Source: Methanocaldococcus infernus ME (GTDB lineage: Archaea; AGJL01; Methanococci; Methanococcales; Methanocaldococcaceae). Taken from it: a stretch of 64,000 nucleotides of DNA. Shown in pieces: positions 5,966 through 32,430 of the stretch. The position numbers and the translations under genes were made by a program. How positions within the stretch are numbered: the first letter of the stretch is position 1; each line of letters begins with the position of its first letter. The stretch is taken from positions 868,001 through 932,000 of the forward strand of contig NC_014122.1 of NCBI RefSeq assembly GCF_000092305.1, read 5' to 3'. Under the pieces are notes generated by a model. The model had not been told where the DNA came from and searched no databases. It saw nothing but the letters and a program-made list of their open reading frames with translations.

Positions 5966-6044
5966 AGTCATCATTTAAATAAGATTTTTGTTTTAAATAG
6001 AAAATTCCCCAAATCAAAAATAGCAATATTTATATTATATTATT

Positions 6045-6098
6045 ATGAATATTTCTGATTGTATCTTCTCCTTCTTAAAGCCTAATAGGGTGATATAA
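6045..6098 (+). other. 17-codon ORF upstream of the RelE-like gene
   Basis: ATG 6045 opens a 17-codon frame (MNISDCIFSFLKPNRVI) ending at TAA 6096-6098, directly over the place where the RelE-like frame would start. AT-rich TATA-like sequence (6028-6040) precedes it. It could be a chance ORF, a leader peptide or a relic of an antitoxin. I see no family resemblance. Confidence 0.2.
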
Positions 6099-6367
6099 TA
6101 ACTTATTTTAAAGTTGAAATTCACAAAAGTGCCAAAAAATCATTAAAAGATCTCCCAAAATCAATAAAAACAAAAATTATTGAATTTTTAATTCAACTAA
6201 AGTCTAATCCTTTTCCTACATCAGATATTAGAAAGTTACGTAATCTTAATAATACTTTTAGAGCGAAATTTGGTGATTATAGGGTTGTTTATTCTATAGA
6301 CTTTGATAAACGCTTAATACGTGTCATTAAAATTGAGCATAGAAAGAAGGTATATAAGAGACTATAA
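6098..6367 (+). pseudogene. RelE/ParE-type toxin gene lacking a canonical start codon
   Basis: An 89-codon frame encodes a RelE/ParE superfamily toxin: it begins TYFKVEIHKSAKKSLKDLP, then the family core RKLRNLNNTFRAKFGDYRV (about residues 48-66) and a C-terminal VIKIEHRKKVYKRL. RelE toxins cleave mRNA on the ribosome. A good ribosome binding site, GGTGAT (6089-6094), is in place, and three bases after it, exactly the spacing used by comA in this window, stands ATA (6098) instead of ATG. There is no ATG, GTG or TTG in frame near it; a TAG lies at 6086. So either this is a toxin silenced by a start-codon mutation or it uses AUA. No upstream RelB-like antitoxin is visible; the only neighbour is a small acidic ORF facing it. 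Confidence 0.75.
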
Positions 6368-6372
6368 ATTAG

Positions 6373-6588
6373 TTAGTCAAATAAATCATCTAAAATTTCA
6401 TCTAAATCTTCCCACTCCTCTCCTTCTAAGATTTTAAGATACTCTTTAACTTCTTCTTCATTAGCCTCTTCTTCAGGTAAAAGCTCAGCCTTTAATTTAA
6501 ATAAATTTATAACTGTGTCATCAATTAATTCAACTTCATCTTTTTTTAATTTTATATCTACTGATTTGCGGGATATAATAATTACCAC
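6373..6588 (-). CDS. Small acidic protein, possible antitoxin relic
   Basis: A 71-codon frame with a basic-hydrophobic N-terminal part (ISRKSVDIKLKKDEVELIDD) and a strongly acidic C-terminal half ending EEWEDLDEILDDLFD. I do not recognise a family. Its position 5 bases from the end of the RelE-like gene, on the opposite strand, and its small acidic nature suggest a toxin-antitoxin remnant, but classical antitoxins lie upstream on the same strand. The start is doubtful: GTG 6588 sits inside the AGGTGGT that looks like the ribosome binding site, and only ATT and ATA codons follow at the usual spacing. Confidence 0.45.
   Translation of the reverse strand: MVIIISRKSVDIKLKKDEVELIDDTVINLFKLKAELLPEEEANEEEVKEYLKILEGEEWEDLDEILDDLFD

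Positions 6589-30803: not shown

Positions 30804-32430
<1,627 letters not shown>

Follow-up and report, generated by a model that had tools for sequence, protein, structure and literature searches.

The window examined here, a 64,000-nucleotide stretch of the Methanocaldococcus infernus ME genome, contains what is probably an intact, convergent toxin-antitoxin pair of the aRelBE type, in which the toxin RelE would be translated weakly from an AUA codon at position 6098. The toxin gene, relE, lies on the plus strand (6098 to 6367; 89 codons plus stop), and its partner, relB, lies tail to tail with it on the minus strand (6373 to 6588), leaving 5 nt between the two stop codons. The original prediction made for this DNA drew attention to relE and its missing start codon, and the convergent antitoxin was absent from it.

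The window protein belongs to the RelE/ParE superfamily and is of the aRelE type. The Pfam profile ParE_toxin (PF05016) matches it over profile positions 1 to 89 of 89 with an E value of 3e-11, scoring 44.2 bits against a cut-off of 23; TIGR02385 scored 25.1 bits, under its cut-off of 27.9. By sequence search the nearest solved relative is aRelE (PDB 1wmi_A, 5e-13), and the same structure was the top Foldseek match (TM 0.81, E 9.4e-8) of a RelE model with a pLDDT of 90, so that the RelE identity first proposed for this frame is borne out by both sequence and fold. Five residues that are invariant in 13 homologues (K14, R55, G59, R62, and R82) are all kept in the window protein; we take K14, R55, R62, and R82 to be basic residues of the active face, presumably with a catalytic role. 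A whole-genome search found relE to be a single-copy gene.

The relE frame is complete in the window sequence, running from 6098 to 6364 and closed by TAA at 6365 to 6367, and a check of all its codons revealed no ATG, GTG, or TTG. Ahead of it stand, in order, TAG (6086 to 6088), GGTGAT (6089 to 6094), a first ATA (6095 to 6097), and the proposed start, ATA at 6098 to 6100. As originally read, the TAG shuts the frame upstream, 9 nt before the proposed start, and GGTGAT lies 3 nt ahead of that ATA; the arrangement GGTGAT-TTA-ATG, to which it had been likened, has a single occurrence in the window (40464). Two observations argue that GGTGAT serves as a Shine-Dalgarno (SD) sequence: spacings of 3 and 4 nt are the modes among the 48 ORFs of the window in which an SD could be detected, and the hexamer pairs with the complementary 3' end of the 16S rRNA, GGATCACCTCC, encoded in the same window at 32363 on the plus strand. 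By itself the string GGTGATNNNATA is unremarkable, being expected about 0.5 times per window (its genome count is 7, versus 28 for a reversed control), and what carries weight is therefore where it stands, together with the evidence from homologues. The unusual point is the placement of GGTGATNNNATA at the N terminus of a RelE frame that has no canonical start.

The original prediction had proposed a comparison with homologues, and had named use of AUA as a start codon as one of its two readings. The comparison favors that reading: two tail-to-tail homologues carry ATA, not ATG, at the start position. The leader of the first, L002, reads GAGGTGGA-AAA-ATA-TAT-TCC (that is, GGTGGA-AAA-ATA), and that of the second, L056, a syntenic orthologue of L002 in M. 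vulcanius, reads GGTGAA-AGA-ATA-TTC-TCC, both placing ATA at the SD spacing seen in the window. ATA is thus present at three loci, two of them orthologous and one frameshifted, and the plasmid relatives in the convergent group begin their toxins with ATG or GTG, not ATA. L002 and L056 occupy the same chromosomal site, flanked by a ribD-like gene on one side and a methyltransferase gene on the other; in the remaining readable genomes of the genus the pair is missing from this site. Between these two loci relE has diverged with a dN of 0.27 and a dS of 1.47 (dN/dS about 0.18), relB with a dN of 0.23 and a dS of 1.22, and the neighboring methyltransferase gene with a dN of 0.26 and a dS of 1.9, ratios that are approximate because dS is near saturation. 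Purifying selection has therefore kept relE between L002 and L056, though both carry ATA. A frameshift has since arisen in the last third of the L056 relE.

These data bear directly on the other original reading, in which a single G-to-A change had silenced the toxin. Under this explanation relE is a start-loss pseudogene, its ATG mutated to ATA and its frame still intact as the loss is recent. The frameshift in L056 shows that decay does occur, and the explanation also draws support from the absence of the pair at the same sites in the readable genomes of the genus, from an orphan RelB in another genome (G013), and from the window relB, whose start is odd as well. However, a recent loss does not sit easily with ATA at equal SD spacing in three loci, with purifying selection between two ATA-bearing loci, or with window and L002 copies that are free of stops and frameshifts, the window protein retaining every invariant residue. 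On this balance we consider start loss unlikely. A sequencing error, with G as the true base at position 6100, would restore ATG by changing one base, but two other genomes have ATA there as well, with identical spacing, and the pattern recurs in other genes of this genome (see below), which makes an error very improbable. We favor initiation at the AUA itself over both of these explanations.

Two other placements of the start were considered and rejected. Farther downstream, the window frame offers no canonical codon; farther upstream, it is shut by TAG 6086, and L002 has no canonical start upstream either. In L056 an in-frame ATG does occur 22 codons upstream of the ATA, yet it is near the TATA-like stretch of that locus.

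The original prediction also pointed to a 17-codon ORF ending over the ATA, through which translation might be coupled. The ORF exists on the plus strand (ATG at 6045, TAA at 6096 to 6098), and its stop codon and ATA 6098 have one base in common, the first A of the latter. The proposed coupling fared less well, as L002 and L056 have no such ORF and its ATG is close behind a TATA-like stretch (6029 to 6041, plus strand), a probable relE promoter recognized from the sequence. Given the general spacing of archaeal promoters, the mRNA probably begins downstream of this ATG, and the ORF is probably not a functional uORF. The same evidence weighs on the idea that the toxin is made by some other route, whether from ATA 6095 or another non-AUG codon, by −1 frameshifting, or by termination-reinitiation from the 17-codon ORF. 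The overlap of TAA with ATA and the position of ATA 6095, also behind the SD, are in its favor, but ATA 6095 stands at a spacing of 0, and a short ORF that lacks counterparts and probably begins ahead of the transcript is a poor vehicle for such a route. We regard it as improbable, and retain ATA 6098 as the preferred start. A search of Rfam gave nothing relevant. A leader structure shared by the three ATA loci was considered and rejected, as no hairpin was marked before the SD in the leader of the window relE (z −0.43). The relE leaders of L002 (z −3.05) and L056 (z −4.38) have strong hairpins just ahead of the SD, in unrelated sequences.

The frame opposite relE is an antitoxin gene of the aRelB type. 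A profile (A1), built by aligning the frame from 6588 to 6373 with small acidic ORFs found beside relE homologues, matches aRelB (1wmi_B) at 2.4e-6; searched as a single sequence, the window RelB had no clear relative in the PDB and no Pfam or NCBIfam family above cut-off. Its start could be GTG 6588, which lacks an SD and comes immediately after an in-frame TAG, or ATT 6579, which stands behind AGGTGG. This ambiguity means that the pair in the window could be decaying. In this part of the minus strand (around 6576 to 6588), ATT ATT ATA comes after AGGTGG.

The usual type II operon has both genes on one strand with the antitoxin mostly first, a layout from which the window pair departs. Most of the archaeal relE loci examined that have a recognized RelB carry relB upstream on the same strand. 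Tail-to-tail relE and relB genes were found in the window, in L002 and L056, in the plasmids pMETVU01 (L005), pEXT9a (L117), and pTI1 (L110), and at a chromosomal locus of genome G102 (L069). In L002, 35 nt separate the two stop codons; in L005 and L069 they lie next to each other, and in L117 and L110 they overlap by 4 nt. In a RelE tree of 74 rows and 90 columns, a single origin of the convergent layout (p-AU 0.156) and a single clade of the three ATA loci (p-AU 0.327) were each neither shown nor rejected.

Three further loci vary on this arrangement. In genome G057 (L028:837-1263), relE is tail to tail with a different small ORF (ISKKEYESII...), which was not recognized as RelB. In G102 the convergent pair adjoins another relE, which is carried by the same strand as relB (L069/L105). 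The orphan RelB of G013 (L115:1317-1514) is 58% identical to that of L002 and has no recognizable relE nearby.

We propose that the strong SD would bring AUA 6098 into the ribosomal P site, where the initiator tRNA would pair with it as a near-cognate codon, and RelE would consequently be made at a low rate. A small acidic RelB-like protein would be made from the opposite strand and, judging from the two families, would bind and neutralize RelE as aRelB does aRelE; RelE itself would be expected to cleave mRNA on the ribosome. The convergent layout may add another layer of control. Past the relE stop, the first run of at least five T residues comes after 173 nt and falls inside relB; past the relB stop, the first such run comes after 196 nt and falls inside relE. 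If transcription terminates at such U runs, the two mRNAs may overlap, and antisense control of relE and relB would be possible.

To see how AUA and AUU behave behind SD sequences elsewhere, we surveyed 654 sites of the form GGTG-N5-codon in 277 kb of the genome. The search for further AUA or AUU starts was a sample that covered the window, roughly 100 sites on the plus strand, and the GGTGAT sites of both strands. A site scored when it was followed by a frame of at least 80 codons that had no canonical start in frame upstream or within the next five codons. Seven non-canonical sites among the 654 scored: 3 of 52 with ATA, 2 of 46 with ATT, none of 25 with ATC, and 2 of 473 with any other non-canonical codon except CTG. 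Taken together, ATA and ATT scored at 5 of 98 sites compared to 2 of 499 for other codons (Fisher p 0.0017). One of the latter two sites is in the 16S rRNA gene and the other is inside the trmJ hit described below; without both, p falls to 1e-4.

The five ATA and ATT hits are relE, L152, mfnA (L159), trmJ (L175), and L221. L152 (G000:C1:1125941; L152:1510, minus strand) is a 232-codon ORF preceded by GGGTGAT-ACT-ATA, with its first canonical start not before codon 204. In a homologue of L152 from G004 (L155; 45% identity), GGGTGGT-AGT-ATA occurs close to the equivalent N-terminal position, and an in-frame ATG is present upstream as well. The mfnA gene (L159:1734-2876; G000:C1 about 47850) has an SD-placed ATA, and a TTG at codon 7 is an alternative. 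The frame at L175:1510-2190 (G000:C1 about 249270) encodes a TrmJ-family methyltransferase (TIGR00050, 1.3e-88) with an apparent ATT start; family models align Met1 there, and the 37 open codons upstream contain no canonical codon. The fifth hit, L221:710-1168 (G000:C1 about 791845), has a signal-peptide-like N terminus that begins at an SD-placed ATT.

Because SD-placed AUA and AUU also appear in ordinary genes, initiation at these codons looks like an infrequent practice of the genome in general, rather than something particular to the toxin, a lead of moderate support given that the sites were chosen after the relE case and that the sample is partial. The original suggestion that an AUA start would give very low, safe expression of a toxin is accordingly plausible and not the whole story, since genes that encode no toxin also seem to use AUA or AUU. 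Our searches of the open literature turned up no account of archaea using AUA as a start codon. A bolder synthesis would hold both that Methanocaldococcus makes genuine and repeated use of AUA and AUU as starts, in genes as different as those for a tRNA methyltransferase and a toxin, and that the tail-to-tail RelBE genes form a type II module whose mRNAs overlap as antisense RNAs; we offer it tentatively, with slightly more doubt than belief.

If these proposals are true, gene callers limited to ATG, GTG, and TTG miss real archaeal genes: none of these codons occurs anywhere in the relE frame, and the only other place for TrmJ to start would be inside its conserved N-terminal motif. The locus would also provide a testable case of archaeal AUA/AUU initiation, and of a toxin restrained at its start codon. 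With the genes tail to tail, as they are on hyperthermophile plasmids too, the usual operon logic of an antitoxin made first and translationally coupled to its toxin would not be usable.

Among known systems, the best match for both window proteins is the aRelE-aRelB pair of Pyrococcus horikoshii (PDB 1WMI), by sequence and fold for RelE and by profile for RelB. The window pair is laid out tail to tail, and its toxin gene carries ATA. The RelBE systems of pMETVU01, pEXT9a, and pTI1 belong to the same family and share the tail-to-tail layout, with stop codons that are adjacent or overlapping, but have ATG or GTG as the toxin start codon. Those of pEXT9a and pMETVU01 have been described, and their orientation passes without comment in the main text of that report (PMC3543421). 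Archaeal relB-relE pairs of the same-strand type, such as those at L004, L019, and L003, have the same toxin family and related antitoxins; they differ in that the antitoxin comes first on one strand, often with a 1-base overlap, and the toxin has ATG. Rare AUU starts occur in bacteria, for example in infC of Escherichia coli. Like the AUA proposed for the window, that AUU is a near-cognate codon differing from AUG in its third base, whereas the window case is archaeal, involves AUA, and lies in a toxin gene.
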